Origin: Deltaproteobacteria bacterium
GTDB lineage: Bacteria > Myxococcota_A > UBA9160 > JAFDDA01
Length of the DNA: 53,628 bases
Assembly (NCBI GenBank): GCA_019311105.1
Contig: JAFDDA010000060.1
Span: forward strand, 1 to 53,628
Direction of reading: 5' to 3'
The notes under the pieces were generated by a model. The model was given only the letters and a program-made list of their open reading frames with translations. It did not search any database and had not been told where the DNA came from. The translations under genes and the position numbers were made by a program. Of this stretch, positions 16,280-37,773 are shown in pieces (the stretch's first letter is position 1; each line of letters begins with the position of its first letter).

Positions 16280-16543
16280 CTAGAGCAGCTCGCGAACGTG
16301 CCGGTATCCGGCGCGGATCTCGTCCATCAGCAGCCGGGCGGCGTCACCCACCTCGTCGGCCGCCTCGCGCGAGGCCCCGGAAAGCACCTTCAGCTTGCCC
16401 TCGAGATGCTCCCAGTCCTTCTCTGCCTTCTCGAAGCGCGACTGCGCCTCCATCTGGCCCAGGCGAACCTGCAGCTTCAGGTCATCCCGCAGGCCGCGCA
16501 GCTCGTCCACCTCTCGATGAAGTCGTTCGTTCCAATCGGACAT
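16280..16543 (-). CDS. Small coiled-coil protein, hypothetical
   Basis: An 87-residue, highly charged, helix-forming protein (WNERLHREVDELRGLRDDL, EKAEKDWEHLEGKLKVL), probably an antiparallel or dimeric coiled coil without cysteines or membrane segments. The ribosome site GAGGAGG precedes ATG. It lies 16 bases after the universal stress protein gene on the same strand, so it is probably the second gene of that sigma-54 transcript. I do not know the family. Confidence 0.75.
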   Translation of the reverse strand: MSDWNERLHREVDELRGLRDDLKLQVRLGQMEAQSRFEKAEKDWEHLEGKLKVLSGASREAADEVGDAARLLMDEIRAGYRHVRELL

Positions 16544-16559
16544 CTCGTCCTCCTCTCAG

Positions 16560-17384
16560 TCATCGCCGCGGCACGCGGCTCAGCCGTCGCTGCGGCGCAC
16601 CGTGAGCACCGGGCAGGGGGCGTGTTGCACCACGCGCTCGGCCGTGCTGCCGAGCACCATGTGGGGCAGGAAGCTGCGGCCGTGGGTCCCCATGGCGATC
16701 AGGTCCACGCCGCGTTCGCGCGCTTCGATCTCGATGGCCTGGGGCGCATAGCCTTCGCGAGCGGCCACGGTGATCGCGTGGCCTTCGCTTCGCTATGTGG
16801 AAGGCGTGGAGCAGGACGATCTCCGTGCCTTCGTCCGCCATCAGGCGAAGGGAGGCGTGCAGGGGCTCGTGGTCGTCATCGGAGAAGTCCGTCGGCACGA
16901 GGATGCGCGAGATCTTGTCCGGCGGCTGCATGTCGGGGTGCACCGACAGCACCGGGATGGGCGAGTGTTGTACCAGCCGCTCTGCGGTGCTGCCGAGCAG
17001 GACGTGTCGCAGGCCCGAGAGCCCGCGCGTGCCGGTCACGATCGCATCGGCGTCGTGCTTTTCCGCGACCATCAAGATGGTCGACACGGCGGGGCCCACC
17101 TGGAGGTCGACGATGGCTTTGAGGCCGTCCTCGCGCGCGGCCTGGGCCGCCTTCTCGAGGCGATCCATGGCGGCCTTGCGGTACTGCTCGTGGAGCTCGG
17201 GCGGGTAGGGCACGAGCTCCGGCATTGTCGGGGCGCCTTGCGGCGGTGCAAGGGCGTGGTGAATCACGAGCTTGGCGCCGTGGCGGTCTGCGAGGCGTTG
17301 CGCCCAAGCCAAGGCAAACCCCGCGCACTCCGAGAAATCCGTGGCGAGCAGGAGTGTTTCCACGGGCTGGGTGGCGGGAGTCAT
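16560..17384 (-). CDS. Tandem universal stress protein with frameshifted second domain
   Basis: The first UspA domain (about residues 1-150) is complete, from TLLLATDFSECAGFAL to the nucleotide-binding GTRGLSGLRHVLLGSTAERL. A second domain begins at about residue 158 (RILVPTDFSDDDHEPL) but after IVLLHAFHIA the frame changes, and the reading frame continues with about 84 meaningless Arg-rich residues. The proper end of domain two lies in another frame (16580-16792). Several dozen residues expected between these blocks are missing, so this is a deletion plus frameshift, not a single-base error. The first domain could still work. It is transcribed away from the CBS gene at 17580 from a shared promoter region; a ribosome site GGAGGAAG precedes ATG. 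Confidence 0.8.
   Translation of the reverse strand: MTPATQPVETLLLATDFSECAGFALAWAQRLADRHGAKLVIHHALAPPQGAPTMPELVPYPPELHEQYRKAAMDRLEKAAQAAREDGLKAIVDLQVGPAVSTILMVAEKHDADAIVTGTRGLSGLRHVLLGSTAERLVQHSPIPVLSVHPDMQPPDKISRILVPTDFSDDDHEPLHASLRLMADEGTEIVLLHAFHIAKRRPRDHRGRSRRLCAPGHRDRSARTRRGPDRHGDPRPQLPAPHGARQHGRARGATRPLPGAHGAPQRRLSRVPRR
16580..16792 (-). pseudogene. Displaced C-terminal part of the second universal stress domain
   Basis: This frame encodes EGHAITVAAREGYAPQ, then GVDLIAMGTHGRSFLPHMVL and STAERVVQHAPCPVLTVRR, which is the end of a UspA domain including the GxHGR...GS nucleotide-binding motif. It is out of frame with the upstream domain, and an in-frame TAG at 16795-16793 closes it on the N-terminal side. 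It is the lost end of the preceding gene. Confidence 0.8.
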
Positions 17385-17431
17385 GGGGCTTCCTCCGGGT
17401 TCAATCGAGCAATCGTCGCTCTCTTCTTCAC

Positions 17432-17447
17432 TTCAAGGGTCGTGCCA
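17432..17447 (-). promoter_or_regulatory. Probable sigma-54 promoter for the universal stress protein gene
   Basis: Minus-strand TGGCACGACCCTTGAA has a perfect -24 box with correct spacing, but the -12 box reads TTGA instead of TTGC. The predicted start is near 17421, giving a leader of about 37 bases with a good ribosome site before ATG 17384. Confidence 0.55.
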
Positions 17448-17538
17448 ACCGGAGGGAACACAAGTGCCTCCCTTTTCACCTCGCTGGTCCATTTCGCCCC
17501 ATCGCTGCTCCGCCCGTTCGCTTCAACACACGGCTCGC

Positions 17539-17554
17539 TGGCACGGCCCATGCA
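17539..17554 (+). promoter_or_regulatory. Sigma-54 promoter for CBS protein 1
   Basis: TGGCACGGCCCATGCA matches the -24/-12 consensus (GG and GC ten bases apart). The predicted start is near 17565, with GGGAGGAGGG and ATG 17580 just downstream. Confidence 0.8.
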
Positions 17555-17579
17555 CTGAGCCCATGGGAGGAGGGCCACC

Positions 17580-17996
17580 ATGGACGCAGCCGAAACGCCG
17601 GTCTCCGAGGTGATGCAGCCGGAGTTCGCCCATATGTCACCCGACGATGGGCTCGACTTCGTGGAAGAGATCATGACGCTCGGCCGGATCCGACACTTCC
17701 CGGTGATGCGGGACGGAGAGCTGGTGGGGCTCGTGTCGCAGCGAGACCTCCTGGCCGCTTCGCTGACGCGCATGCTGGACTTCGACGGCACCCACCGACG
17801 CGCCTTTCTGCGTTCGGTGAAGGTTGCGGAAGTCATGACGACGAAGGTTCGGACGGTCTCGCCCGACGCCACGCTCGCCTCCGTCGCGCGGCTCTTCGGG
17901 CGTCACAAGATCGGATGCGCCCCGGTGGTGGGGAGCGATGGCGCAGTGGTCGGGCTCGTGACCGAAAGCGACCTGTTGGCCCGGGCGTACCTGTAG
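17580..17996 (+). CDS. CBS-domain pair protein 1
   Basis: A 138-residue protein consisting of two CBS motifs, about residues 8-62 (SEVMQPEFAHMSPDDGLDFV to GLVSQRDLLAA) and 80-136 (KVAEVMTTKVRTVSPDATL to VVGLVTESDLLARA). A CBS pair binds adenine nucleotides or similar ligands and usually acts as an energy or redox sensor. It is about the size of the stand-alone hypoxic response protein Hrp1 of mycobacteria. It has a strong ribosome site and its own sigma-54 promoter, divergent from the universal stress protein gene. The ligand is unknown. Confidence 0.9.
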   Translation: MDAAETPVSEVMQPEFAHMSPDDGLDFVEEIMTLGRIRHFPVMRDGELVGLVSQRDLLAASLTRMLDFDGTHRRAFLRSVKVAEVMTTKVRTVSPDATLASVARLFGRHKIGCAPVVGSDGAVVGLVTESDLLARAYL

Positions 17997-18021
17997 GGCT
18001 GCGCTCCCGAGCGCGCGTGGC

Positions 18022-19401
18022 TCAGGCCTCGTCGGCTTTGGGAGCGTTCGCTCGCTCGCCGCGCCGGTAGAGCGTGCGCCGGTTGATTCCGAGGATCTTG
18101 GCGGCGCGCACTTTGTTGCCACCCGTTTGCTTCAACGTCTCTTCGATGTAGAGGTCGCCGAGCTCGTGGAGTGTCATGCGGCGATCGACTGCCACTCGCA
18201 GCAGGTTGCCCCCGCCGCTCGGCGCCGCGGTCATCTCGCTGCCGAGGGGGAGGTCGGCGGCGCCGATCACCTCCTCGTCGGAGAGGGCGAGGGCCCGCTC
18301 GAGCACGTTTTCGAGTTCGCGTGCGTTCCCTTCCCAGGGGCAGGCCATGAGCCGCTCGATGGCGCTTGGCGCGAGCCGCCGCGGTGAATCCGTGCCCGCG
18401 TGCTTGGCGAGCAGGGCTTCCGCCAGCGGGCGCACGTCCTCCGGTCGCTCGCGCAGGGGCGGGATGTGGATCGGGATCACGTTCAGGCGATAGAACAGAT
18501 CGCGGCGGAAGTGGCCCGAGTCCATCTCCTTATCGAGGTCCTTGTTGGTGGCGGCGACGATTCGCACGTCGACCTTGACGGACTGGTTTCCCCCGACCGG
18601 CCGGATCTCGCGGTCCTGCAACACGCGAAGCAGCTTGCTCTGCAGGCCGGGGCCCATGTCCCCGATCTCGTCGAGGAAGAGCGTTCCGCCATGCGCCTCC
18701 TCGAAGAGGCCGCGCTTGGTGGCATGGGCGCCGGTGAAGGCGCCGCGCACGTGCCCGAACAGCTCGCTCTCGAGCAGACCTTCCGGGATCGCCGTGCAGT
18801 TGATCGGAACGAAGGGCTTCTCCTTGCGTGTGCCGGCGAAATGCAGCGTGCGCGCGACGACCTCCTTGCCCGTTCCGCTCTCGCCGGTGATCAGGACGCT
18901 GCTGCGGTTGTCGGCCACCTTCCGCATGAGGGCGAAGATGTCGTGCATGGCGGGGCTCGAGCCGATCAAGTCCCCGAAAGCGCTGCTGCGATCGACGGCG
19001 CGGCGCAGGCGGCGGTTCTCCTCCAGCAACGCACGGGTCTCGAAGGCTCGCTCGAGGGCGAGAAACAGCTCGTCGCGCTTGAAGGGCTTCGTGATGTAGT
19101 CGAAGGCTCCGGCGCGCATGGCCTCGACCGCGGAGTCGATGGAGCCGAAGGCGGTCATCAGCACCACCGGCGTCGCGGGCCGCAGCGCATGGATCGCCCC
19201 GACGAGCTCGAGGCCGCTCATCCCCGGCATGCGGATGTCGCTCACCACGGCATCCACGTCATGGGCCCGGAGGTGCTCGAGAGCGGGCTCCGCCGCGTCC
19301 TCCCCCGTCGCCTCATAGCCTTGATCGCCCAGGAGGGAGACCACCATCTCGCGCATGGCGTCGTCGTCGTCGACGACCAGGATCCGACGTTGTTCAGTCA
19401 T
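18022..19401 (-). CDS. NtrC-family sigma-54-dependent response regulator
   Basis: A 459-residue transcription activator in three parts. The receiver (about 6-120) has RILVVDDDD and phospho-acceptor Asp55 in VVSDIRMPG. The AAA+ ATPase (about 140-375) has Walker A GESGTGKE (173-180), the sigma-54 contact loop GAFTGA (220-225) and GGTLFLDEIGD as Walker B. The C-terminal Fis-type helix-turn-helix is VRAAKILGINRRTLYRR. I place the start at ATG 19401 because it directly precedes the receiver. A consensus sigma-54 promoter sits just upstream, so it probably activates its own gene. The kinase at 19963-21261 is the likely partner. Confidence 0.95.
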   Translation of the reverse strand: MTEQRRILVVDDDDAMREMVVSLLGDQGYEATGEDAAEPALEHLRAHDVDAVVSDIRMPGMSGLELVGAIHALRPATPVVLMTAFGSIDSAVEAMRAGAFDYITKPFKRDELFLALERAFETRALLEENRRLRRAVDRSSAFGDLIGSSPAMHDIFALMRKVADNRSSVLITGESGTGKEVVARTLHFAGTRKEKPFVPINCTAIPEGLLESELFGHVRGAFTGAHATKRGLFEEAHGGTLFLDEIGDMGPGLQSKLLRVLQDREIRPVGGNQSVKVDVRIVAATNKDLDKEMDSGHFRRDLFYRLNVIPIHIPPLRERPEDVRPLAEALLAKHAGTDSPRRLAPSAIERLMACPWEGNARELENVLERALALSDEEVIGAADLPLGSEMTAAPSGGGNLLRVAVDRRMTLHELGDLYIEETLKQTGGNKVRAAKILGINRRTLYRRGERANAPKADEA

Positions 19402-19414
19402 GATGGGTCTCCAA

Positions 19415-19430
19415 AGCATGTGCCGTGCCA
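19415..19430 (-). promoter_or_regulatory. Sigma-54 promoter for the response regulator
   Basis: Minus-strand TGGCACGGCACATGCT is a full -24/-12 match. The predicted start, about 19404, is only three bases before ATG 19401, so the message would be essentially leaderless. Confidence 0.75.
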
Positions 19431-19477
19431 TCAGGGAAGGGGCTCACGGGGCTGCGGCGGCAAGGTCGGGTGGCGAA

Positions 19478-19496
19478 GTGAGGTGATTTTCTACAC
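19478..19496 (+). promoter_or_regulatory. Candidate activator site upstream of a sigma-54 promoter
   Basis: GTGAG...CTACAC spans 19 bases between the two divergent sigma-54 promoters. It resembles GTGAG...CTCAC at 24892-24910, also 19 bases, which lies upstream of another sigma-54 promoter. Only two loose copies support it. Confidence 0.25.
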
Positions 19497-19533
19497 GAGA
19501 GGCATCATGTCACATTCTTGCCCGATTTACGCC

Positions 19534-19549
19534 TGGCACTACGCGTGCA
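19534..19549 (+). promoter_or_regulatory. Sigma-54 promoter for CBS protein 2
   Basis: TGGCACTACGCGTGCA has GG and GC at the exact -24/-12 spacing. The predicted start near 19560 is two bases before ATG 19562, again giving a nearly leaderless message. Confidence 0.78.
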
Positions 19550-19561
19550 TAGGCCGAGCCC

Positions 19562-19966
19562 ATGAGCCGCCGAGTTCGCGATCTCATGCACCGGAATTTC
19601 ATCCAGGTCTCGCCCCACGAGCGAGTTGCCGACGTTCTGCAGTTGATGGCTCTGGCCCGCGTTCGAGCGCTCCCGGTGATCCACGGCGGGGTCTGGCAGG
19701 GGCTCGTGTCCCACCGGGACCTCGCGCTCGCGGCGCTGGCCGGCCACGGGGTGCCGTCCGGGGACATCGCCGAACACGTTCGGGCCATCGCACCGGTGTC
19801 GCCGGATGCCCCGCTGTCCGAGGCGGCTCGCCGCATGTTGGGTGATGCCGCGCCGTGCCTGTTGGCGGTGGAGGGCGAAGCGGGCGAGGCCCGTGTGGTC
19901 GGGTTGCTCACCGAGAGCGACCTCCTGCGCGAGGCCTATCGGACCGGCGGTGGCCCCGCGGCCTAG
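19562..19966 (+). CDS. CBS-domain pair protein 2
   Basis: A 134-residue protein of two CBS motifs, about residues 5-60 (VRDLMHRNFIQVSPHERVAD to LVSHRDLALAA) and 68-128 (DIAEHVRAIAPVSPDAPLSE to GLLTESDLLREA). The layout matches CBS protein 1, so they are probably paralogues, with the same presumed nucleotide-sensing role. It is divergent from the response-regulator gene, each with its own sigma-54 promoter. Its 3' end overlaps the convergent kinase gene by four bases. Confidence 0.88.
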   Translation: MSRRVRDLMHRNFIQVSPHERVADVLQLMALARVRALPVIHGGVWQGLVSHRDLALAALAGHGVPSGDIAEHVRAIAPVSPDAPLSEAARRMLGDAAPCLLAVEGEAGEARVVGLLTESDLLREAYRTGGGPAA

Positions 19967-21261
19967 CTGCCGGCCGGGGCCTTCGCGCGTGCCTTCGTCG
20001 GTGCCATGGGCAGGCGGATGCGGAACGTCGCGCCCTCTCCCGCAACGCTCTCGACCTCGATCTGCCCACCGTGGTCGCCCACGATTCCCTTGGCGACGAC
20101 CAGGCCGAGCCCGTTGCCCTGGCCCGCCGGCTTGGTGGTGAAGAAGGGATCGAAGATCAGGCCCAGTTGCTCCGGCGCCACGCCAGACCCGGTGTCGGCG
20201 AAGATCAGCTCCACGGTGTCGCCCTCGGACGGTCGCAACGAGACGCAGAGCGTGCCGCCGCCTTCTTCCATGGCGTCTACGGCGTTGAGCCCCAGGTTCA
20301 AGAAGAGCTGTTGGAGCTTCTCGGCATCGCCCAGCACCGACGGCGTCGGCTCGAAATCCCGCTCGACCGTCACCTGATACCGCTTCATCTTCACGCTGAG
20401 GAACGACAGCGTCGTGTCGAGCAGGGCCTCGAGGGCAACGGGCTCGCGCACCATCTCGTGCGGCCGCGCCATGTTCAGCAGGGCCTGGATGATCCGCGAG
20501 ATGCGGTCGACCTGATCGCGGATCGTCTGGAGTCGCCAGCGCCCCTGCTCGTCCTCCACCAGGGGTTCGAGCGCCTCGGCATGGCCCGAGATCACCCCCA
20601 TCGGGGTTCCGATCTCGTGAGCCAGACCGGCCGCCAGCGTGGCGACCGAGGCCAGGTCTTCGGCGGCTCGAGCGCGGCGGCTGGTGACGCGCAGCTCCTG
20701 GTCGCGATCGCCGAGCCGACGTTGCAACGAGCGGCTCGACGCAGCGAGCTCGCGGTTCAGGTGCGCGAGCTCCCCCTCGCTGCGCTCGATGTAGGCCTCC
20801 ATCGCGATCTGTGCGTCGAGCATGAGGCGCTTCATCAGGGCCGCGAGGATGCGCTCGCCCCGGTCGGGGTCGTGGGCGAAGGCGTCGCGGAGGAGCGGCA
20901 GGAGCAGGGTGAAGTAGAGGGCGTAGGCGCCCAGGTACCAGCGCGGCTCGAGGCCGATCCGCTCGTGGGCCTTGCCGATGCGCACCCGGTCAGCGAGGTA
21001 GTCGGCATCGATCTTCGGGTCCGCCAGGGACAGCAAGTAGCGTCGCTGGGAGACGAGCAGCCGCTCCTTGACGGCTGGCTCCACCAACAGGCCACGGGTC
21101 GCCTCGAACGACAACAGATGCCGGTAAAAGGAGGCCACCAGGCCCTCGGCGGCCTCCTCGAGGGTCGGCCGGGCTTCTGCCAGGAGTGCGAGATCCTCGG
21201 GCTCGAGCCCCAGGAACGTCAGGCGCCGCTCGAGGTCGCGGATGTCGGTCGGGTCGGTCAC
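19963..21261 (-). CDS. Globin-coupled sensor histidine kinase
   Basis: A 432-residue cytoplasmic sensor kinase. Residues about 10-155 form a globin-coupled-sensor (protoglobin-like) domain: SFYRHLL, then IGKAHERIGLEPRWYLGAY, where His99 is the predicted proximal haem ligand. This is the HemAT-type signature for binding O2, NO or CO. A helical linker (about 156-205) leads to the dimerisation domain with phospho-acceptor His215 (GLAHEIGTP). The ATPase domain has NLGLNAVDAM, IFADTGSGVAP and GNGLGLVVAKGI. I choose GTG 21261; ATG 21336 would add 25 residues without recognisable sequence. No transmembrane segment is present. The partner is probably the NtrC-type regulator next door. Confidence 0.9.
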   Translation of the reverse strand: MTDPTDIRDLERRLTFLGLEPEDLALLAEARPTLEEAAEGLVASFYRHLLSFEATRGLLVEPAVKERLLVSQRRYLLSLADPKIDADYLADRVRIGKAHERIGLEPRWYLGAYALYFTLLLPLLRDAFAHDPDRGERILAALMKRLMLDAQIAMEAYIERSEGELAHLNRELAASSRSLQRRLGDRDQELRVTSRRARAAEDLASVATLAAGLAHEIGTPMGVISGHAEALEPLVEDEQGRWRLQTIRDQVDRISRIIQALLNMARPHEMVREPVALEALLDTTLSFLSVKMKRYQVTVERDFEPTPSVLGDAEKLQQLFLNLGLNAVDAMEEGGGTLCVSLRPSEGDTVELIFADTGSGVAPEQLGLIFDPFFTTKPAGQGNGLGLVVAKGIVGDHGGQIEVESVAGEGATFRIRLPMAPTKARAKAPAGS

Positions 21262-21384
21262 GCCGGGACGGTGTCCCAACCGCCTCGCCCGGTCAAATGC
21301 GACCCGACGCCCCAGATGGGTGGGGCGGGAAGTCATTTCGTGCCGAGGCATCGCGCTGAACGAGCGGTAGGGGCCCCGGAGTCC

Positions 21385-21400
21385 TGGCACGGCGCTTGCG
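21385..21400 (+). promoter_or_regulatory. Sigma-54 promoter for the ferritin-like operon
   Basis: TGGCACGGCGCTTGCG matches the -24/-12 consensus, including TTGC. The predicted start near 21411 leaves a leader of about 58 bases with GGAGG before ATG 21469. Confidence 0.82.
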
Positions 21401-21468
21401 ATTCCGTTCGGTGACCGGGCCGCCAGAAGCGCCCGCGTGGCTGCGCCCAGAAACCTTTGGAGGCCTCC

Positions 21469-22362
21469 ATGGCTGACTTTCTTTCCGGATACTCGATTCA
21501 ATATTGGCTCGAATCGTGCCCCCAGGGCTACTTGGAGGAGACCGAGTACGGGCACAAGGCCGGGGTCTCCGAATCCGACCTGATTCTCGGAGACGACCTG
21601 CTGCGCGAGCAGGCGATCAAGGTCACGACCCAGATGGTCGTGGGCGAGCGTTGCGCCCTGGCCGCGTCCTCGGGCCTGATCAACGCGGCACCCGACGAGG
21701 CGGCCAAGCGCTTCCTCGCGACCCAGACGCTCGACGAGGCTCGCCACGTCGAAATCTTCACCCAGCGCCTCTACGACCTCGGCGTCGGCAAGAACGACCT
21801 GGAGAGCACGCTCCGCGAACACGCGAACCCGAACCTCGTGAAATTCGCGGAGGCCCTGCTCGAGAAGGTCGAGGCCAAGGATTTCATTCCCGGCGTCGTG
21901 GGCCAGAACATCATCCTCGAGGGCATGGCCTTCAGCGTCTTCGAGATGCTGTACGCGGGCAACCAGAAGCTGAACCCGAAGTTCGCCCAGACCCTCGCGG
22001 GGACGATCGCGGACGAGCGTCGCCACGTGGGCTTCGGCGAGAACTACATCGGCGCGCTGATCAAGGAACAGCCGGAGAAGCGGCCCGAGATCGAGAAGCT
22101 CCAGAAGGAGATGTCGTACTATATGCTCGCAACTTTCGCGGACCAGTTCCGGGACAACGACGCCCGCGCCGAGCTGGAAACGATGAAGAAGCGTGCAGTG
22201 GAAGCCGGTGGCGAGGAGTCGCAGGGCACCTGGCAGGGTGCAAACCTCGCCGAACTCGATCCCGAAGAGATGGAGGCCCTGCTCGCCAGCACGGTGCTCG
22301 GTGAGTTCAAGACCCGCCTCGGTCGCATCGGTCTCGAATACCAGACGCCGGCGCAGCCCTAG
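21469..22362 (+). CDS. Ferritin-like diiron protein A
   Basis: A 297-residue all-helical protein of the ferritin/R2-like superfamily. Predicted diiron ligands are Glu60 (VVGERCAL), Glu90 and His93 (LDEARHVEIF), Glu151 (IILEGMAF), and Glu183 and His186 (ADERRHVGFG), the two E/E-x-x-H sets expected of an R2-type site. It may be an oxidase, oxygenase or oxygen scavenger; the reaction cannot be told from sequence. The start is ATG 21469 after GGAGG. It is first in an operon with paralogue B, a Cys4 mini-protein and WS/DGAT, under sigma-54 control. Confidence 0.85.
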   Translation: MADFLSGYSIQYWLESCPQGYLEETEYGHKAGVSESDLILGDDLLREQAIKVTTQMVVGERCALAASSGLINAAPDEAAKRFLATQTLDEARHVEIFTQRLYDLGVGKNDLESTLREHANPNLVKFAEALLEKVEAKDFIPGVVGQNIILEGMAFSVFEMLYAGNQKLNPKFAQTLAGTIADERRHVGFGENYIGALIKEQPEKRPEIEKLQKEMSYYMLATFADQFRDNDARAELETMKKRAVEAGGEESQGTWQGANLAELDPEEMEALLASTVLGEFKTRLGRIGLEYQTPAQP

Positions 22363-22373
22363 CTGGAGGTTTC

Positions 22374-23150
22374 ATGAGCGATCCCGCCGAAGTCCATGCG
22401 CTGGACCCCGAGTCCTTCGAGGAGCGCGTCCACTCGTTCCAGTTCTGGTTCGAGGCGGTCCAGGGCTATCTGGTGGATCGCGAGTACGGCCACCGGCCGG
22501 AGCTCCCGGAACCCGAACTCACGGAGTCCGAGCGCGACCGGCTGGTGACCGTCCTCTGCAACTACTGCGTAGGCGAGACCGCGGCCCTCGACGGGGCCAG
22601 CGGCCTCATCGCGGTGGCGCCGAACCGGCTCACGAAGATCTTCCTCTCCACCCAGGTCGTCGACGAGGGGCGCCATCTCGAGGTGTTTCGCCACCGGCTC
22701 CTCGCACTCGGGGTCGAGCATCCCGAGGACGAGATCGAGCGCCGCGCGAGCCCGCGGCTGCGCGAGTTCCGTCGGAAGCTCGAGGCACTCGTGGCCGAAC
22801 GCGACTGGGATGCTGCGATCTTCGCCCAGAACGTGATCCTCGAGGCCATGGAGTTCTCGACGTTCCAGATGCATGCCGGCTATGCCGACCCGATCACGCG
22901 TGAGGTCCTGATCGGAATCATCAAGGACGAGCGCCGTCACATCGGCTTCGGCGAGAACGAGCTCGGCCGCCGCCTGAAGCATCACCCGACCCTGCGCGAG
23001 CGCCTGCAGCGCGTGAGGCAGGAACTCGACCCGCTCGTTCTCGCGACCCTCGAAGAGGCTTTGGGCGAGCTCCAGGTGCCTCGGGCCGAACGCGAAGACC
23101 TGGGCCGCAGCTATCTGGCCGCGGTGGAACGACTGGGGGTTCGGGGGTGA
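22374..23150 (+). CDS. Ferritin-like diiron protein B
   Basis: A 258-residue paralogue of the preceding protein. Ligand motifs are VGETAALDG (Glu68), VDEGRHLEVF (Glu98, His101), VILEAMEF and KDERRHIGFG. The N-terminal segment FQFWFEAVQGYLVDREYGH parallels IQYWLESCPQGYLEETEYGH in protein A. Two such subunits side by side suggest a heteromeric complex or duplicated function. It starts 12 bases after gene A and overlaps the Cys4 gene as GTGA. A truncated recent copy of this gene is at 26469-26777. Confidence 0.85.
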   Translation: MSDPAEVHALDPESFEERVHSFQFWFEAVQGYLVDREYGHRPELPEPELTESERDRLVTVLCNYCVGETAALDGASGLIAVAPNRLTKIFLSTQVVDEGRHLEVFRHRLLALGVEHPEDEIERRASPRLREFRRKLEALVAERDWDAAIFAQNVILEAMEFSTFQMHAGYADPITREVLIGIIKDERRHIGFGENELGRRLKHHPTLRERLQRVRQELDPLVLATLEEALGELQVPRAEREDLGRSYLAAVERLGVRG

Positions 23151-23440
23151 GCGCCGAGATCGCGAAGCTGCCGACCGAGCCGGCACGTCGGAAGTACGAA
23201 CTGTTCGACGACACGGGCTTCGATGAGGTGCCGAAGAAGTACCGCAAGTTCTACCGGCGTTGGGGCGGGGAGGGCGACCCTCTGGCACCGAACGAGGTGC
23301 TCTGCCCGGTGTGCAAGATCGTGATCCGTTCGAATCGCGAGCTGCGCCCTGGCGACCGCGTGTATTGCATGGCCTGCATGGCGCGGCTCCGGGTCGCCGA
23401 AGGGCCGGACGGGGCTCTGGTCGGGCTCGTGGAGTACTGA
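23147..23440 (+). CDS. Small Cys4 (zinc-ribbon/rubredoxin-like) protein
   Basis: A 97-residue protein with a basic N-terminal half and two CxxC knuckles, EVLCPVCKIVI and VYCMACMARL, about 25 residues apart, able to hold one zinc or iron ion. Being translationally coupled to the ferritin-like gene upstream (GTGA overlap), it could be an electron-transfer partner or an assembly factor for the diiron proteins. I do not recognise a named family. Confidence 0.78.
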   Translation: MSAEIAKLPTEPARRKYELFDDTGFDEVPKKYRKFYRRWGGEGDPLAPNEVLCPVCKIVIRSNRELRPGDRVYCMACMARLRVAEGPDGALVGLVEY

Positions 23441-23455
23441 GAGGGGAGGCCGAGC

Positions 23456-24895
23456 ATGCTCGAGGCAGGCGCAACCAGTCCGCAGGGGCCCGACTTCGAG
23501 AGGCTTGGCGCCCAGGACAGCTCCTTCCTGATGTTCGAGGGTCGGCATACGCCGATGCACGTGTCCGCCCTCGCGTTGTTCGAGGCGCCACCGCTCCCCG
23601 GTCGCACAGGGGGGTTCGACTTCGAACGCATCCGCGACCACGTGGCGGCCGGGCTTCACCGCCTGCCGCGCTACCGGCAACGCATCGTTGCGACGCCCGT
23701 CGAGGGTCACCCGATCTGGATCGACGACGAGCACTTCAACCTCGACTACCACGTTCGTCACACCTGCCTGCCGCCGCCCGGAGACGAGTCTGCGCTCGAG
23801 TCCCTGGTTGGCCGGATCCTCTCCCAGCAACTCGACCGCAAGAAGCCGTTGTGGGAGATCTGGGTGGTCGAAGGGCTCGAGGGCGGGCGCTTTGCTCTGC
23901 TGTTGAAGGTCCATCACTGCATGGTGGACGGTGTTGGCGGGATGGCGCTCCTCGAACAGTTGCTCTCCGCTTCGCCCGACGCCCGGCCCGAGCCGGCGCC
24001 GGCCTGGGTGGCGCGGCCGCGGCCGAGCGGCGTGCGGTTGTTGGCCGATGCCATCCTTCGCCGCGGTCAGGCGCCCGCCGAAGCCATGGGCGCCCTGCTC
24101 GATGCGGCTCGCGAGCCGCGTCGAACGGCTGAAGAGCTGGGGCACAACCTGACCGCCATGCTGGGTGCGCTGCGCGAGGGGTTCCGCATCCCCGACGACA
24201 CGCCCCACAATCGGAAGATCGGGTCGCATCGACGGGTGGGATGGTTGAGTCTCGACCTCGCCGAGTTGAAGTCGCTGCGTCGAAGCCTCGACTGCACGGT
24301 CAACGATCTCGTCCTCACCCTGGTCACGGGCGGCATCCGGAGGTTCCTGGCCGAACGCGAGGTCGACCTCGAAGGGCTCGACTACCGCGTCGTGATCCCC
24401 GTGAACGTGCGCGCCTTTCGCCAGGGAGACGAAGATGCTTCGGGGAACCGTGTGTCGGCGTGGTTTCTGTCGCTTCCGGTCGCAGAGCCCGACCCGCACC
24501 GACGACTCGAGCTCATTCGTGAGGCCACGAGCCGCCTTCGCGAATCCGAGGCAGCGGTCGGGATGGACCTTTTCACCCGGGTGGTCGAGTGGACGGGCTC
24601 TTCCCTTCTCACCTATGCCGGAGTGCGGCTTGCGGCTCGGGTGCATCCCTACAACCTGATCGTGAGCAACGTGCCGGGGCCCCAGTTCCCGCTGTATCTG
24701 CTCGGCGCGCGAATGGCTCGCGGCGGATTGGGACCTGGTGCCCGAGCTCGATGGCCTGCGAAACGGCATCCGCCTCGCCCTCGACGAGCTAACCGGCCTC
24801 GAGTCGGTCCCGAAAGCGGCCGCTCGCTAGGGCTCGATGTCCGCCTCTGCGAGGGTTCCTTTGAGGCAAAATTGGACGAATATGATGCCAAGTGA
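23456..24895 (+). pseudogene. Wax ester synthase/diacylglycerol acyltransferase with C-terminal deletion and frameshift
   Basis: The first ~410 residues are a normal WS/DGAT enzyme (PF03007), which esterifies fatty alcohols or diacylglycerol with acyl-CoA to make storage lipid. It has LGAQDSSFLMFEGRHTPMHV at the start, catalytic VHHCMVDGVGG, CTVNDLVLTLVTGG, and SNVPGPQFPLYLLGARM. After ARM about 30 expected residues are missing and the frame shifts. The true end, ADWDLVPELDGLRNGIRL to a TAG at 24828-24830, is in another frame, while the annotated frame continues to 24895 with Arg-rich nonsense. Function is therefore doubtful. It has a strong ribosome site (GGGGAGG) and closes the sigma-54 operon. 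Confidence 0.85.
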
Positions 24896-24910
24896 GCATT
24901 ATTGACTCAC
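24892..24910 (+). promoter_or_regulatory. Candidate operator, inverted repeat
   Basis: GTGAG-N9-CTCAC is a perfect 5-bp inverted repeat 38 bases upstream of the -24 box of the hemerythrin promoter. Its position suits an enhancer-type activator site, and it resembles 19478-19496. A possible sigma-70 -10 (TATGAT, about 24881-24886) lies just before it. Confidence 0.35.
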
Positions 24911-24947
24911 CCCAGTGGCTGGCGTGCGTCGAATTCGCTGCACACTT

Positions 24948-24963
24948 TGGCACGTCTCATGCT
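24948..24963 (+). promoter_or_regulatory. Sigma-54 promoter for the hemerythrin-like gene
   Basis: TGGCACGTCTCATGCT is a full -24/-12 match. The predicted start near 24974 is two bases before ATG 24976. Confidence 0.78.
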
Positions 24964-24975
24964 TTTCACTGTGGC

Positions 24976-25413
24976 ATGAACGATCCGAAGCGTCCGCAGT
25001 TCCAGCCTGGGCTTCGCATGCGCGTGGCGCGCGAGGCCCGTCGGATCGCCAGCCAGCACCGGCAGCTCGATCTCTTCTACGAGGCGTTGCTGAAGTCGCT
25101 GTTCCACGAGAACGTGGCGAAGTCGCGCTCGGAGTTCTTGCGCTTCCACGATGCGCTCGAGGCGCATTTCACCGTGGAGGAGCGCATCCACTTCCCCGCC
25201 TTGCACGGGCTTCGGCCGGAACTCGACGCGGAGCTCGTAAGCCTCGTCGAAGAGCACAAGAGTTTCCGATCGACCCTCGATCACCTGGCCGCACTGCTCG
25301 AGCGGAAGGAGTTGGCGCGCTGCTCCGATGAACTTGACGGCTTCGTGACCGATATCGTCGCCCATGAGGGCCGCGAAGAGCGCATGGGTGAGCGCGTGGC
25401 CCATTCCGGCTAA
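24976..25413 (+). CDS. Hemerythrin-like (HHE) protein
   Basis: A 145-residue four-helix HHE protein. The expected diiron ligands appear as ASQHRQLD, RFHDALEAHFTVEERIHFPAL, LVEEHKSF and IVAHEGREE, that is the His and Glu residues of a hemerythrin pocket. Such proteins bind O2 or NO or sense iron and oxygen. The start is set at ATG 24976 because the sigma-54 promoter would begin transcription at about 24974; the frame is open further upstream. It is followed five bases later by the cation exchanger gene. Confidence 0.85.
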   Translation: MNDPKRPQFQPGLRMRVAREARRIASQHRQLDLFYEALLKSLFHENVAKSRSEFLRFHDALEAHFTVEERIHFPALHGLRPELDAELVSLVEEHKSFRSTLDHLAALLERKELARCSDELDGFVTDIVAHEGREERMGERVAHSG

Positions 25414-26468: not shown

Positions 26469-26777
26469 GTGCGTTGGCACGACCCGGGCCGGGACGGGAT
26501 CACACTTCAATTCTGGTTCGAGGCGGTCCAGGGCCATCTGTCGGATCGCGAGTACGGCCTACAGCAGGATCACGCCGAGCCCGAACTCACGGAGCCCGAG
26601 CGTAATCGGCGGGTGACCGTGATCTGCAACTCCTGCGTCGGCGAGACCGCGGCCCTCGACGGGGCCAGCGGTCTCGTCGCGGCAGCGCCCAACGAGGTGC
26701 TCTGCCCCGTCTGCCAGGTCGTGATCCGTCGCGGCCCGCGAGCTGCGCGCCGGCATTCCGTGCGGCAGAGCGCGTAG
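26469..26777 (+). pseudogene. Fused relic of ferritin-like gene B and the Cys4 gene
   Basis: Residues ~13-76 copy ferritin-like protein B (LQFWFEAVQGHLSDREYG, then SCVGETAALDGASGLVAAAP) and the frame then passes directly into the Cys4 protein (APNEVLCPVCQVVI). A deletion joined the two genes at a shared GCnCCnAACG sequence. The second CxxC knuckle is lost through a further frame change and the frame ends in Arg-rich nonsense. Over one 114-base stretch I count about 15 mismatches to the intact gene B. TGGCACGACCCGGGCC at 26475-26490 keeps a -24 box with a degraded -12 box, so a promoter may have been copied too. The product is not expected to be functional. Confidence 0.85.
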
Positions 26778-28376: not shown

Positions 28377-29222
28377 CTAGCAGCCCGCTTCGATCGATGC
28401 GTACCACTCCGTCAGATACTTCTCGTCGTCGAAACTCCACGGGTGGAAGCCGGGCTTGAAGTACTGCGCGATCATGCGGAGTTGAGGGCCTACCAGCTTC
28501 TGGTTGATGCTCTTCGCCTGTGCGCGCATCTCATGGGTCACCTTCGTCCCATCGTCCTTCATCATGCGCCGCGCGATCCGGCTGAGCGGAAGGGCGAGCA
28601 GAAGCAGCGCAGCGACCGCGGAGAACACCCTCAGGAAGTATCCGCCTCCGACCTGCCGGAAGAGATCGAAAGCGACGGCCTTGTGCTCGAGCTCCTCGGC
28701 GGCGTGCCAGCGCCAGAACCCCTCCATCTCCGGCGGCATCGACTCGGCGACCAGTGGCTCCATGAACAGCATGTGCGCCCCGACGGCGGTCAGATGCTCG
28801 AGGAAGGCGGTCGCACCGAGGCAGACCTTTGCGGGCAGGGCCCTCTCTATCGAGTCCATGACGCGATTCGCGTACGCCCTCTCGCGCTCGACGTCGATCC
28901 CGAACGCCGCGAGGGAATCGTTGAACTGGTTGTGGGCCTGGGTGTGCAGCCCTTCCTGCTGGATGAATGCCCGGATCAGGTCCTGCAGCTCCGGGTCGGT
29001 TACACGGTCCTGGTAGTGACGGACGGAACGGATGAAGAAGCGTTCGCCCGGTGGGATCATGATCGAGAACGCATTCTCGAAGTGGGTGATGATCGGATTC
29101 CCGGCGAACCAGTATTGGGGCACGGACGCCAGATCCCCGAACTCGAACTTCCGCGGTTGAACCACCACCCCGGCGGGTAGGCGCGAAGAATGTGCAGCGT
29201 GGGATGTCGCCTGGATGGCCAT
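28377..29222 (-). CDS. Predicted metal-dependent hydrolase (PF10118/COG3687)
   Basis: A 281-residue helical protein with the pattern of the PF10118 family: HFENAFSIMIPPGERFFIRS, FIQQEGLHTQAHNQFND, FLEHLTAVGAHM and WHAAEELEHKAVAFDLF, giving several Glu and His positions suited to a dinuclear metal site. One hydrophobic stretch (VFSAVAALLLLALPLSRI, about residues 200-217) may touch the membrane. Family members are uncharacterised 'predicted hydrolases' often near lipid or hydrocarbon genes. It is followed upstream (minus strand) by a 42-residue gene and a TetR gene. Confidence 0.8.
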   Translation of the reverse strand: MAIQATSHAAHSSRLPAGVVVQPRKFEFGDLASVPQYWFAGNPIITHFENAFSIMIPPGERFFIRSVRHYQDRVTDPELQDLIRAFIQQEGLHTQAHNQFNDSLAAFGIDVERERAYANRVMDSIERALPAKVCLGATAFLEHLTAVGAHMLFMEPLVAESMPPEMEGFWRWHAAEELEHKAVAFDLFRQVGGGYFLRVFSAVAALLLLALPLSRIARRMMKDDGTKVTHEMRAQAKSINQKLVGPQLRMIAQYFKPGFHPWSFDDEKYLTEWYASIEAGC

Positions 29223-30613: not shown

Positions 30614-31579
30614 ATGAATTTCGAAACGATCGACACCACGGTCAAGACGCTCTGGCGCTACGACTACGACACGAACATCAAACCGCTGAGAGATCTCTAT
30701 GAGGTAGCCAAGCGGGAGCAGTGGAACGCGGCTACGGACATCCCGTGGGAGCTGGAGACCGACCCGAGCCAGGTCGGTGACATGAACGCGACGTTCTCCG
30801 AGCCGTACGACTTCGTCAAGGCGCTCTCGACGGAGAAGCAGATCGAGCTCGCGAGGCGGCGCTCGGCCCATCTGCTGTCGACCTTCCTGCACGGCGAGCA
30901 GGGCGCGATGATGATCTGCGGGCAGCTCGTGGAGGTCGTCCCGGACATGGACGCCAAGCTCTACGCATCCACACAGGTCATCGACGAGGCCCGCCACGTC
31001 GAGGTGTTCCACCGCTACATCCAGCGCCTGGACAAAGTCTATCCGATCATGCCCGGGCTGAAGGCGTTGCTCAACGCGGTGCTCACGGCGGATCTCTGGC
31101 AGATGAAGTGCGTCGGCATGCAGATCATCGCGGAGAGTCTGGCGATGGGCTCGTTCAAGACCATGCTGAAGATCACCAACGACGAGGTCTTCCGTAAGGT
31201 CCTCGAGCTCACCTCCCAGGACGAGGCACGACATGTGTCCTATGGGCTGATCTACATGAAGGACGCGATCCCGAAGATGAACGAGCGCGATCGCGATCGA
31301 CTGGAGGACTTTGCCTGGACGGCGATGACGCTGCTGGCATCGACGCCGCAGATGGAAAAGGGCAAGGAGTATGTCGATCCCATGGAGGAGATCTACACCG
31401 ACGTCGGCATCGACCCGAAGAAGGCGGCCAGCGAGATCATCTCCAGGATGAGCGACCCCGAAGCCGCCAAGGCCCAGCCGAACCCCTTCCGTGAGTATGC
31501 CTTCCCGCAGCTCAATCGTGTCGGCCTGATCACCGATCGCACGATCGAGAAGTATCGCGAGGTGGGCCTGACAGATTGA
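30614..31579 (+). CDS. Ferritin-like diiron oxygenase/oxidase C
   Basis: A 321-residue R2-like diiron protein. Ligand motifs are LHGEQGAMMICGQLV, VIDEARHVEVFHRYI, AESLAMGSF and SQDEARHVSYGLIYM, giving two Glu/E-x-x-H sets. It is related in plan to proteins A and B but longer and more divergent. Coupling to a ferredoxin and TetR control suggest an inducible monooxygenase or desaturase on a hydrophobic substrate; that is inference. The nearby P450 stub and Rieske protein suggest a degraded oxygenation locus. Confidence 0.83.
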   Translation: MNFETIDTTVKTLWRYDYDTNIKPLRDLYEVAKREQWNAATDIPWELETDPSQVGDMNATFSEPYDFVKALSTEKQIELARRRSAHLLSTFLHGEQGAMMICGQLVEVVPDMDAKLYASTQVIDEARHVEVFHRYIQRLDKVYPIMPGLKALLNAVLTADLWQMKCVGMQIIAESLAMGSFKTMLKITNDEVFRKVLELTSQDEARHVSYGLIYMKDAIPKMNERDRDRLEDFAWTAMTLLASTPQMEKGKEYVDPMEEIYTDVGIDPKKAASEIISRMSDPEAAKAQPNPFREYAFPQLNRVGLITDRTIEKYREVGLTD

Positions 31580-34779: not shown

Positions 34780-37353
34780 ATGGACACCGGCCGCTTGAGC
34801 CTCCAGGACGCGCCGCCGCTCGCGGTTCCCGTCTTGTTCTTCCTGACCGCGCCGCTGGCCCTCGCAGCGGCGGGCGCCACGGTGCTCCTTGGCGGAGCCG
34901 ACGTGCTGACGAGCCGCTGGGCTCCACTCACGCTCGCCGTGACCCACCTCGGCACCCTCGGCTTCATCTCCATGGTGATGCTGGGCGCGACGTATCAGAT
35001 GACTGCGGTGGTCGTTGGAAGCTCCATCCCTTGGCCGCGATCGGCCTACGGCGTGTATGCGCTCTTCACGCTCGGCGTTGCCGGCTTCTGCTGGGGCATC
35101 GCGAGCGGGAACCCGTCGATCGTCTTCGTGGCGATCGCAATACTGACCTTCGCCGTCGGTCTCTTCGTGGTACCCGTCGGAATCGCGTTGTTCAGGGCGC
35201 CGTCCCTGAACGAGACGGTCTTCGGATTTCGCGCGGCCATCGCTTTCTTCTTTTTCGCGGCCGTCGCGGGCATCTGGATGGCTCACGGCTTCAGCGGCAT
35301 GGCCTTCCCTGGCTCCCGATTGCTCTGGAGCCAGGCACACCTCAGCGTGGCGCTCGTTGGCTGGGTGGGGGGGCTGCTTGCGGCGGTCTCGTGGCAGGTG
35401 CTGCCCATGTTCTATCTCGCGCCGCACCCGCCTGGTGTGATCAAGTGGACGGTTCAGATCCTCGTGGTCGTCGGTGCCGTCGGGCCCGTGATCATCCTCG
35501 GCATCGACTACCTCGGTCTGCTCGGCGAGGGCGGCCCCCCCCTCGAGCCCGCCGTCGCGGCGGCCGCCACGCCCGGCATCCTCGCGGTCTGGGTGCTGCA
35601 TCCGGCCGTCAGCGCCTGGAGCCTCTCGAAGAGGCGCCGCAAGCGCGTCGACCCGAGCCTGTACTTCTGGCAGGCCGGTCTGCTGATGGCTCCGCTCACC
35701 GCGCTAGCCGCCATCGCCGCCTGGTCGTTGGACGCACCGCACTGGGATGTCCTCTTCGGGTGGCTCGCGCTCTGGGGCTGGGTCGGCATGATCATGCACG
35801 GGATGCTCACGCGCATCGTGCCCTTTCTGGTCTGGTTGCATCGCTTCGCACCCGTGGTGGGCCGGATGCCCGTCCCCTCGGTCCGAAAGCTGTCCCCCGA
35901 CGCGTTCATTCACCGAGGGCTCGCGCTCCACCTCTCCTCGTTGCTCCTCGGCATCGCGGCCATCTTCACGGTCTCCGATCTGCTCTGCAGGCTCGCTGGG
36001 CTGGGGCTCATCCTGACGGCGGCCTCGATCGCACATCTCCTGGTCCACGTGCTGCGGCAACGACCTCCGGCGGAGGTCGTCTCCGCGGTGGCGCACGCTC
36101 TCGATGGGACCGATGCCCACTCGATCCCGCATCAGGCCGCAGCGATCCAGGTCCTCGACGCCCCGGGCCACTCGACGTCGGAGGCGTTCGGGCTGTGGGG
36201 CCGTGCCTTCCGGCCGTTCTTTCTGGCCGCCGCGCTCTACGGAGCGCTCGTGATTCCCTGGTGGACGGGAATCTGGCTCGGTGCCGTCCCCGCACCGGGG
36301 TGGCTGCTTCCGACGTGGTGGCACGGGCACGAGCTGATGTTCGGCTTCGCCGCCGCGGCGATCACCGGCTTCCTGCTCACGGCGTCACCCGTGTGGACGG
36401 GAGGGCCGGCACTTTCGGGCCGGCCGCTGGCCGCGCTGCTCGCGCTCTGGGTCGCGGGGCGGCTCGCTTTCGCGATGGCGGGGGCTCTGCCGGTTTCGCT
36501 CGTCGCCGCGGTCGACATCGCCTTCCTCCCCGCGGTCGCGTTGGTGCTGGTCCGTACGCTCTGGGGCTCGGGGCAGCGTAGGAACTACGCCATTGTGGGC
36601 ATCCTGGTCGTGCTGGCGACGGCCAATGGCGTGATGCACGCCGAGGCCCTCGACCTCACCTCGGGTGTCGCGGGACGAGCGCTGCGGTTCGCAGTCGATG
36701 GGGTCGTCGTCCTGATCCTCGTGATCGGCGGCCGCATCACTCCCCCATTCACCCAGAATGCCTTCCGGCGCAGCGGCATCGACCGCCCGGTCCGATCGTG
36801 GCCCTGGCTGAACGCGCTGGTGATCGGAGCGGCGGGGATGTTGGCGTTCGTGAGTCTCGTGAGCGCACGAACGCCGACGACCGGGATCCTCGCTGCGATT
36901 GCCGGCCTCGCCGGGGCCGTTCGGCTGGCCGGCTGGCAGCCGTGGCACACGCGATCGGACCCTCTCCTCTGGTCGCTCCACGCGGGATCCGCCTGGGTCG
37001 TCGTCGGGCTGCTCCTGGTCGGAGCCAGCGATCTCGGTGCGCCAATTCCGGCTGCAGCGGGCCTGCACGCACTGACTGCGGGAGCGATGGGAGCCACGAT
37101 CCTCGCCGTGATGACACGGGTCGGCCTCGGTCACACCGGGCGTCCCCTCGAGCTGCCCGATCACGTCGTCTGGTGCTACGGGCTGGTTCACGCGGGCACG
37201 CTTGCGCGAGTGGCAGCGCCGTTCGTTGGCGGGGACGGGCAGCGCGCCCTTCTGCTGGTGAGCGGGATCGCATGGGCGGCCGCATTCGGGCTCTTCGCTG
37301 TTCGCTACTGGCACATCCTCACGGAGCCGCGGCCCGATGGAAGGCCGGGATAG
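34780..37353 (+). CDS. Fusion of oxidase-subunit-I-like membrane domain and NnrS
   Basis: An 857-residue polytopic protein with about 24 predicted helices in two halves. The N-terminal half (to about residue 450) has LGTLGFISMVMLGATYQM and WGWVGMIMHGMLTRIVPFLV, resembling the subunit-I-like proteins that accompany NnrS. The C-terminal half (about 465-850) is NnrS (PF05940): LWGRAFRPFFLAAALYGALV, WHGHELMFGFAAAAITGFLL and GGRITPPFTQNAFR. NnrS is a haem- and copper-containing membrane protein that protects against nitric oxide. The start is ATG 34780 immediately after the DUF2249 stop. Whether the first half keeps metal sites is unclear. Confidence 0.85.
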   Translation: MDTGRLSLQDAPPLAVPVLFFLTAPLALAAAGATVLLGGADVLTSRWAPLTLAVTHLGTLGFISMVMLGATYQMTAVVVGSSIPWPRSAYGVYALFTLGVAGFCWGIASGNPSIVFVAIAILTFAVGLFVVPVGIALFRAPSLNETVFGFRAAIAFFFFAAVAGIWMAHGFSGMAFPGSRLLWSQAHLSVALVGWVGGLLAAVSWQVLPMFYLAPHPPGVIKWTVQILVVVGAVGPVIILGIDYLGLLGEGGPPLEPAVAAAATPGILAVWVLHPAVSAWSLSKRRRKRVDPSLYFWQAGLLMAPLTALAAIAAWSLDAPHWDVLFGWLALWGWVGMIMHGMLTRIVPFLVWLHRFAPVVGRMPVPSVRKLSPDAFIHRGLALHLSSLLLGIAAIFTVSDLLCRLAGLGLILTAASIAHLLVHVLRQRPPAEVVSAVAHALDGTDAHSIPHQAAAIQVLDAPGHSTSEAFGLWGRAFRPFFLAAALYGALVIPWWTGIWLGAVPAPGWLLPTWWHGHELMFGFAAAAITGFLLTASPVWTGGPALSGRPLAALLALWVAGRLAFAMAGALPVSLVAAVDIAFLPAVALVLVRTLWGSGQRRNYAIVGILVVLATANGVMHAEALDLTSGVAGRALRFAVDGVVVLILVIGGRITPPFTQNAFRRSGIDRPVRSWPWLNALVIGAAGMLAFVSLVSARTPTTGILAAIAGLAGAVRLAGWQPWHTRSDPLLWSLHAGSAWVVVGLLLVGASDLGAPIPAAAGLHALTAGAMGATILAVMTRVGLGHTGRPLELPDHVVWCYGLVHAGTLARVAAPFVGGDGQRALLLVSGIAWAAAFGLFAVRYWHILTEPRPDGRPG

Positions 37354-37773
37354 ATCGGGAGGCGGCCTCGCCGCGCTCCAGCCGCTTTCGGAGAACCCGC
37401 GGCGAGCGCCATGGCAGCCTCGCCGATTCGCGCGATTCGCGCGGGTCGCGGTCGAGACGGATTCGAGCGATTTCGCCGCGCCCCGCCGAAGCGACCCTGC
37501 CCGCCAGCGATGAGAAGGCCTGGGATCTCGAGACGGCGCATCGCGTCCATGGCAACCTCGGCCTTGAAGGGCGAGAGGCCCTCTGCGCTCTATGTGTGAC
37601 TCCATGTCACAGGCGCAAGCGGCTCCGGTTGAGCTGCGTCCAAAGCCCTACGATCGACCGCGAGGAGCTATGAGCGCGGTCATACCGGCTGGCTGGAGAG
37701 CGGGCTAATCATAATCGAAGGGACACCGGCGCTGTGCCTGGATGTCTCTTTTGCCTCGTTCGGAGGAGTTCGG
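37354..37773. other. Intergenic region upstream of the LuxR-type gene
   Basis: No full-size gene is convincing. The region contains short direct repeats (CGATTCGCG twice near 37424-37440). At 37670-37708 an ATG preceded by GAGGAG opens a 12-residue mini-frame (MSAVIPAGWRAG), about 65 bases before the regulator start. It may be a leader peptide or chance. Confidence 0.35.

Follow-up and report, generated by a model that had tools for sequence, protein, structure and literature searches.

A candidate oxygen-responsive regulon of a Myxococcota class with a globin-coupled kinase, an NtrC-type regulator and an apparent exchange of haem sensors

Which signal does a globin-coupled kinase read when it lies beside a sigma-54 activator, in which direction does it act, and which genes does it serve? 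These questions are raised by a 53,628-nt stretch of DNA from a Deltaproteobacteria bacterium of the Myxococcota (contig JAFDDA010000060.1; the whole stretch is called the window, and its coordinates are those of the contig), in which a module at 16280-25413 combines genes for a protoglobin histidine kinase, a sigma-54 activator of the NtrC type, a universal stress protein (USP), two CBS proteins, two diiron proteins, a Zn-ribbon-like protein, a wax ester synthase/diacylglycerol acyltransferase (WS/DGAT) and a hemerythrin. A preliminary description made from the sequence had listed these genes and viewed them as a DosR-like dormancy system; the list as such was borne out by Pfam and NCBIfam profile searches of the window proteins. 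We assign a probability of about 0.72 to the reading that the module represents, for one class of Myxococcota, a two-component regulon that responds to oxygen and is autoregulated. With its ligand residues recognizable in the sequence, the protoglobin would bind oxygen at its haem and thereby set the kinase activity, and the kinase would hand its phosphate directly to the regulator that is encoded beside it. The regulator, bound to 17-bp palindromes, would then drive sigma-54-dependent transcription of its own gene and of genes for USP, CBS, hemerythrin and diiron-oxygenase proteins, sometimes also for WS/DGAT. Activation, the identity of the signal and its sign are predicted from sequence.

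The arrangement recurs widely in the class. A full-length kinase was found in 52 of 90 class genomes, representing 10 of 12 families (a second search also listed 52 class genomes with a globin match), and an orthologue of the regulator (E<=1e-140) in 60 of 89. In 43 of the 52 loci the regulator gene has the same orientation as the kinase gene and is no more than 1 kb away; among the nine loci without an adjoining regulator, several are cut off by the end of the contig, and in two (L090, L092) a frame with only a receiver occupies this position. Altogether 54 class neighbourhoods (L062-L115) were fetched, of which two lack a globin kinase and 52 have one (with one genome represented twice), and compared with 20 arbitrarily placed 20-kb segments from ten of the same genomes. 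Genes for USP (33/54 versus 0/20), CBS (34/54 versus 1/20), hemerythrin (24/54 versus 0/20), diiron (17/54 versus 0/20) and Zn-ribbon proteins (17/54 versus 0/20) are enriched at the kinase loci. WS/DGAT, which had been counted among the module genes, scores above the NCBIfam cut-off in the window but occurs at just 6/54 loci (0/20 controls), and ppk, whose neighbouring copy ppk1 had been tied to an energy-reserve theme, was found at 0/54 loci and in 0/20 controls. Clustering of further neighbour genes at the class loci gave mostly antisense shadow frames, and a scan of genome contigs returned, among the matches listed, mainly other kinases. Outside the Myxococcota, the expected recurrence in several lineages is weak: in 12 stretches from the phylum of a Nitrospirae genome, taken from 29 matches listed in 25 of 198 genomes, an NtrC-type regulator was found in four, in two of these adjoining the globin kinase, with USP and CBS together in one and CBS alone in one more.

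The window kinase is a globin-coupled sensor kinase, in which a protoglobin with the proximal His is joined to a kinase, in agreement with the HemAT-type haem signature recognized in the preliminary description. Its His99 and Tyr46 align with the conserved His and Tyr of HemAT, which we take to be the proximal and distal haem residues. Among 53 globin kinases (52 class loci and the window), the His is kept in 51 and the Tyr in 52. The domain matches the solved globin of AfGcHK (5ohe, 2e-8), represents the only protoglobin copy found in the assembly, and probably binds haem and O2. The adjoining regulator is, as had been supposed, of the NtrC family; it combines a receiver (REC), a sigma-54 activation domain with GAFTGA and a Fis-type helix-turn-helix (HTH), and GAFTGA is exact in 44 of 48 regulator frames from the class loci and the window.

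Sigma-54-type -24/-12 sites had been described before the genes for USP, both CBS proteins, the diiron operon and hemerythrin; these five were found again and a sixth was added at the regulator gene itself. In the window the pattern YTGGCACN6TGCW occurs three times exactly (0.05 expected; 0/100 shuffles), and TGGCACN6TGCW with up to one mismatch 11 times (5.25 expected; 4/100 shuffles reach 11). RpoN is encoded in the genome. For 48 regulators, window included, a scan of 350 bases ahead of the regulator domain showed an exact site in 30 and a site with at most one mismatch in 42; 100 permuted patterns averaged 0.1 and 2.5, and on the antisense strand the counts were 7 and 15, some of them from divergent promoters. 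Almost all regulator genes are therefore preceded by a site of the sigma factor type that their own products serve. For the other genes, exact sites and sites with at most one mismatch were counted on the sense and antisense strands, respectively: cbs (n=76) 19 and 42 versus 13 and 30, usp (n=59) 7 and 15 versus 3 and 10, fer1 (n=11) 5 and 6 versus 0 and 1, WS/DGAT (n=7) 0 and 3 versus 0 and 0, and the kinase gene (n=53) 0 and 4 versus 9 and 17; three fer2 promoters were dropped before one of the promoter analyses. The density of TGGCAYN6TGC is 14.8 per 100 kb in kinase loci versus 1.5 in control segments. At 31 of 37 such sites of regulator genes the start codon follows 13-17 nt past the -12 C, corresponding to a leader of about 2-6 nt if this C lies at -12, and across 128 sites of the class loci and the window possible starts peak at 13 nt (26) and 14 nt (15), and no start falls at 12 nt. 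Near-leaderless spacing is also seen at some cbs, usp and hemerythrin genes, and in the window at 19401-19430 (-), 19534-19565 and 24948-24978. No description of a near-leaderless sigma-54 promoter of a regulator gene was found in the accessible parts of the literature searched, which lay mostly outside subscription journals and included PMC3616915.

A candidate operator was obtained by expectation maximization (EM). Applied to 42 regulator promoters with masked sigma-54 sites, EM returned a 17-bp palindrome, TGtGgCAtaaTGcCaCA (score 260.5 versus 29.5 for shuffled sequences), and 67 other, non-overlapping promoters (18 of 85 had been dropped beforehand for overlap or duplication) gave the same palindrome, TGgGGC-N5-GCCcCA (135.7 versus 35.2 shuffled). 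The consensus, TGnGGCA-N3-TGCCnCA, is found at up to two mismatches in 48 of 127 promoters versus 1.5% of shuffled ones. Its distances from the promoter step by about 10 bp, with ends about 37, 48, 59 or 70 bp upstream of the -24/-12 elements in the class, and the helical phasing has a best period of 10.1 for 53 sites with up to two mismatches and of 10.4 for 115 sites with up to three (0/2000 uniform nulls in both cases). A sigma-54 site lies within 130 bp of 15 of 19 operators at one mismatch or fewer, versus 5.5% of random positions, and the control segments contain no operator of this quality. The palindrome is probably the enhancer bound by the regulator, evident upstream of -24/-12 promoters for the class and weak in the window itself. 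As a separate observation, an exact sigma-54-type site precedes a gene for an Hsp20-like protein (by eye) at locus L022 (G000:C168), where the class operator is absent at up to three mismatches.

The sensor part can apparently be exchanged. In the two class loci without a globin kinase (L114, L115), the place of the globin is taken by an N-terminal segment, which by eye contains hydrophobic stretches, together with a PAS domain; for L114, the best solved match of this domain is FixL of S. meliloti (4.9e-33). Their kinase domain is 58-61% identical to that of the window, and the regulator, usp, hemerythrin, the diiron pair and the Zn ribbon are retained. In a kinase tree of 73 rows, made by a quick method with no bootstrap after kinase domains with weak profile scores had been dropped, both are nested among globin kinases, their neighbour being a globin kinase from their own family (support 93). 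A second PAS group comprises 15 other kinases (support 95), and two changes between the globin and PAS labels are required, which is the number that the starred branches force. The regulators of both loci sit among the globin-partnered ones in the regulator tree, in which the regulator of L282 was labelled globin-partnered by default. Fifteen further stretches came from genomes without a globin kinase or from sites of a further regulator copy. A PAS kinase that is FixL-type by motif adjoins the regulator in six of them (L287, L288, L290, L291, L292, L294); one (L282) holds a regulator plus kinases of both labels, and the regulator was not seen in six (L283-L286, L289, L296), three of which lie on short contigs. 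It appears from these sequences that the same kinase-regulator lineage exchanged one haem sensor for another and kept the rest. Such an exchange would support oxygen as the signal and suggests a kinase that is active without oxygen.

Several observations weigh against this reading or against parts of it. Relatedness among the genomes inflates all class-wide motif and promoter counts, the sequences not being independent samples. Genome-wide, exact sigma-54 sites number 30, half the count obtained with the reversed control (60), and single matches therefore mean little; the weight of the promoter case is carried by local concentration, with four of these 30 sites within 7.4 kb of the 4.76-Mb assembly, and by conservation across relatives. 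Before hemerythrin genes (n=38), exact sites are no commoner in sense (4) than in antisense (5) orientation, with 15 and 8 at up to one mismatch. The operator copies of the window are weak, with 2-4 mismatches; at one mismatch or fewer the operator occurs at 10 places in its own genome versus 8 for the control, none of them in the window, and the strict operator-plus-promoter pattern matched in only seven of 89 class genomes, at least three of the matches being regulator promoters and the window genome not being among them. Operators at two mismatches also occur in the controls (2.5 per 100 kb versus 7.1 in kinase loci), and when only the 15 sites at one mismatch or fewer are considered, the phasing becomes marginal (122/2000 nulls). 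The proximal His is lost in the globin kinases of L110 and L111, which still adjoin a regulator and may sense something else or nothing, and the PAS kinases beside the regulator in L293 and L295 are not FixL-like. Finally, the diiron oxygenase-like products would need O2 and could fit an oxygen-ON regulon, which is the main argument for the opposite sign, and AfGcHK, the best-studied globin kinase, is active as Fe(II)-O2 and inactive as Fe(II) (PMC8697598).

Concerning this sign, we lean towards a kinase that is switched on when its haem is in the deoxy form. Two observations lead to this prediction: elsewhere, a FixL-type haem-PAS sensor drives a kinase and a regulator that are close relatives and have largely the same gene neighbours, and the class loci yielded no NmpS, the inverter kinase that is paired with an O2-activated globin kinase in Myxococcus xanthus. 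Adaptation to low oxygen, through energy sensing, oxygen capture and oxygenase or lipid chemistry, is the description that fits the output best. If the globin kinase were instead active with O2, as AfGcHK and NmpU are, the regulon would be on when oxygen appears and supply oxygenases and an O2-binding hemerythrin to a microaerobic organism. We regard this as unlikely, though far from negligible: the key residues of AfGcHK are His99 and Tyr45 (PMC8697598), its globin matches the one found here, and the diiron proteins resemble the O2-dependent VlmB and aldehyde-deformylating oxygenase (ADO), but kinases of this lineage, beside regulators of the same lineage, also carry a FixL-type PAS, O2 keeps FixL inactive (PMC8697598), and the comparable NmpR target mxan_4236 is hypoxia-induced (PMC11841059). 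AfGcHK of Anaeromyxobacter shares with the window kinase the globin-coupled histidine kinase architecture and differs in being NmpU-like and O2-activated (PMC8697598), the polarity predicted for the class being opposite. FixL-FixJ is related through the FixL-type PAS on the same kinase lineage in L114 and L115, whereas the class regulator is of the NtrC type and not FixJ, and the window sensor is a globin. As a bolder and tentative proposal, for which we would not quite offer even odds, the sensor might be a plug-in on a fixed chassis of kinase, regulator and regulon, with globin and FixL-type PAS swapped under selection for the same signal and sign. The globin kinases of the class would then have FixL polarity and need no inverter. 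Synthesis of the regulator would start from a sigma-54 transcript with almost no leader, forming a loop that amplifies itself and may be favourable to translation when cells are short of energy.

The system most similar to the class loci is NmpRSTU of M. xanthus, in which genes for a CBS protein, a USP and a hemerythrin are tied, under hypoxia, to sigma-54, an NtrC-like regulator and a protoglobin kinase (PMC11841059, PMC6211767). It belongs to the same phylum, its kinase acts upstream of the regulator, and its components are themselves NmpR-regulated, as the class regulator gene carries its own sigma-54-type site. The CBS gene mxan_4236 is induced 6.5-fold under hypoxia (PMC11841059), and it has been proposed that M. 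xanthus converts the O2-active NmpU into a hypoxia response via NmpS (PMC11841059, PMC6211767). The principle is hence not new, because NmpRSTU already works that way (PMC11841059, PMC6211767); the real surprise of the class system is the sensor exchange together with its testable polarity. Membership in NmpRSTU was considered and rejected, since the class loci have no NmpS or NmpT, another kinase branch and another operator. In the 54 class loci, other contigs of these genomes not being searched, no REC-kinase hybrid of the NmpS type was found, and REC-only frames as in the double-REC protein NmpT occur just in L087, L090 and L092, none of them in the Nmp arrangement. The class kinase domain sits on a branch apart from the NmpU and NmpS types and has a different H-box, and the regulator also forms a separate branch (quick trees with long branches); both regulators may share an NmpR-like ancestor. 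The NmpR operator GCGCA-N5-TGCGC is at chance in the class (25/127 promoters at up to two mismatches versus 19% of shuffled ones) and has exact copies in front of genes at L229, L239 and L244, loci that lie outside the class. In addition, the class loci have VlmB/ADO-like diiron proteins and WS/DGAT as neighbours. Four Nmp-type loci were seen (L238, L239, L240, L244), whose globins are 28-32% identical to that of the window, and in other Myxococcota (L232-L235, L237) a third wiring was found, in which a kinase domain resembling that of NmpS rather than that of NmpU is joined to the globin and adjoins an NmpR-like regulator. A literature search combining globin-coupled, histidine kinase, sigma-54 and universal stress protein, mostly outside subscription journals, returned no such paper.

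The proposal of a true DosR-like dormancy regulon, induced for non-replicating survival, appears rather improbable to us. In mycobacteria, DosS and DosT are haem sensor kinases, and the DosR regulon includes USP, CBS and WS/DGAT genes, the gene classes whose overlap had prompted the comparison. This overlap stands, but as an analogy of gene content: DosR systems use a GAF haem sensor and a NarL/LuxR-type regulator and no sigma-54, whereas the window has a protoglobin, an NtrC-type regulator and sigma-54 sites, and against dormancy also stand the rarity of WS/DGAT, the missing ppk1 at related loci and the lack of a ferredoxin in the window operon. The diiron proteins look, by their sequences, like O2-using oxygenases, which would fit low-oxygen use at least as well as dormancy. 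The globin haem can also bind NO, and nitric oxide as physiological ligand, or a redox-sensing function, might be tied to the genes for cytochrome d1, NnrS and cytochromes at 34-53 kb of the window; we consider this very improbable, as the FixL-type swap points to O2 and the comparable Nmp system follows O2 (PMC11841059); the profiles applied to related loci covered the module genes. Least probable of all is mere gene clustering in a stress island with promoters due to chance or under another activator, which would agree with the genome-wide sigma-54 counts and the weak window operators but is contradicted by conserved promoters and a helically spaced palindrome at several gene types, the latter absent from all 20 controls at one mismatch or fewer.

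The features of the module are collected in Table 1.

Table 1. Genes, sigma-54-type sites and candidate operators of the module (strand "." for sites without orientation)
Feature	Position	Strand	Basis and remarks
Conserved module protein, 87 aa, coiled-coil-like by eye	16280..16543	-	Pfam: no match; relatives at 14/54 class loci, 0/20 controls
Universal stress protein (USP), frame broken in assembly	16560..17384	-	Pfam Usp
Sigma-54-type site before USP, TGGCACGACCCTTGAA	17432..17447	-	-24/-12 pattern
Candidate operator between divergent USP/CBS1 promoters	17485..17501	.	3 mismatches, weak; 37 bp from each promoter
Sigma-54-type site before CBS1	17539..17554	+	-24/-12 pattern
Small two-CBS protein (CBS1)	17580..17996	+	Pfam CBS pair
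NtrC-type response regulator	18022..19401	-	Pfam Response_reg + Sigma54_activat + HTH_8
Sigma-54-type site of the regulator's own gene	19415..19430	-	-24/-12 pattern; leader about 3 nt if -12 C at -12
Candidate operator between divergent regulator/CBS2 promoters	19498..19514	.	2 mismatches
Sigma-54-type site before CBS2	19534..19549	+	-24/-12 pattern; leader about 2 nt
Second small two-CBS protein (CBS2)	19563..19966	+	Pfam CBS pair; open reading frame 19586-19966, likely start 19563
Protoglobin-coupled histidine kinase	19963..21261	-	Pfam Protoglobin E=1.9e-37 + HisKA + HATPase
Sigma-54-type site of diiron operon, TGGCACGGCGCTTGCG	21385..21400	+	-24/-12 pattern
First diiron oxygenase-like protein, VlmB/ADO-like fold	21469..22362	+	phmmer 6d9f 6e-13; Foldseek on model
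Second diiron protein, aldehyde-decarbonylase-like	22374..23150	+	phmmer 4kvr 1.2e-11; Pfam Ald_deCOase 8.9e-10
Small Zn-ribbon-like protein of diiron operon	23147..23440	+	four Cys; CPVC/CMAC cysteines conserved
Wax ester synthase/diacylglycerol acyltransferase (WS/DGAT)	23456..24895	+	TIGR02946 364.2 bits, cut-off 309.95
Sigma-54-type site before hemerythrin gene	24948..24963	+	-24/-12 pattern; leader about 2 nt
Hemerythrin-domain protein	24976..25413	+	Pfam PF01814 6.9e-11

Some gene assignments had to be revised. The diiron pair had been called ferritin-like; no ferritin family matched at E<=0.01, and both proteins are instead similar to VlmB, aldehyde-deformylating oxygenases and R2lox. 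For the first of them, an AlphaFold2 model (pLDDT 86.7) gave Foldseek matches to 6d9f and 8wvr (E 4.1e-9 to 1.9e-8). The small protein that follows the pair was considered as a ferredoxin and turned out to be a four-Cys Zn-ribbon-like protein, for which Pfam and NCBIfam at E<=0.01 and a fold search at E<=0.001 gave no match. Two genes are affected by the assembly: the second Usp domain of the USP runs on in another frame (16580-16768), and the C-terminus of the WS/DGAT is out of frame, WS_DGAT_C being aligned only up to position 91 of 145. Downstream of the module, pieces resembling the second diiron and the Zn-ribbon protein are joined at 26469-26777 (+), which looks like a decayed duplicate of the operon; a Metal_hydrol gene (PF10118) at 28377-29222 (-) and an AurF-like gene (PF11583) at 30614-31579 (+) lie near the module. 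The region 34780-53626 carries denitrification-type genes for NnrS, COX3-like, SCO1, multicopper oxidase, cytochrome d1 (nirS-like), cytochrome c554-like and NrfD proteins and also encodes a kinase with a Fis-type regulator. Just past the NnrS gene, the palindrome TGTGACTCCATGTCACA was noticed at 37595-37611, whose shape we take to be CRP/FNR-like.

If the proposed reading is true, an oxygen regulon would be defined for a mostly metagenome-derived class, and candidates would be at hand for its sensor, regulator, operator and targets. The four-part wiring of NmpRSTU would then be one of at least three arrangements in Myxococcota in which a globin kinase lies beside an NtrC-type regulator. Moreover, the class would offer naturally occurring kinase pairs with different haem sensors and a common kinase and regulator lineage as well as common neighbouring genes, which would make the effect of the sensor fold on the sign of the oxygen signal directly testable.

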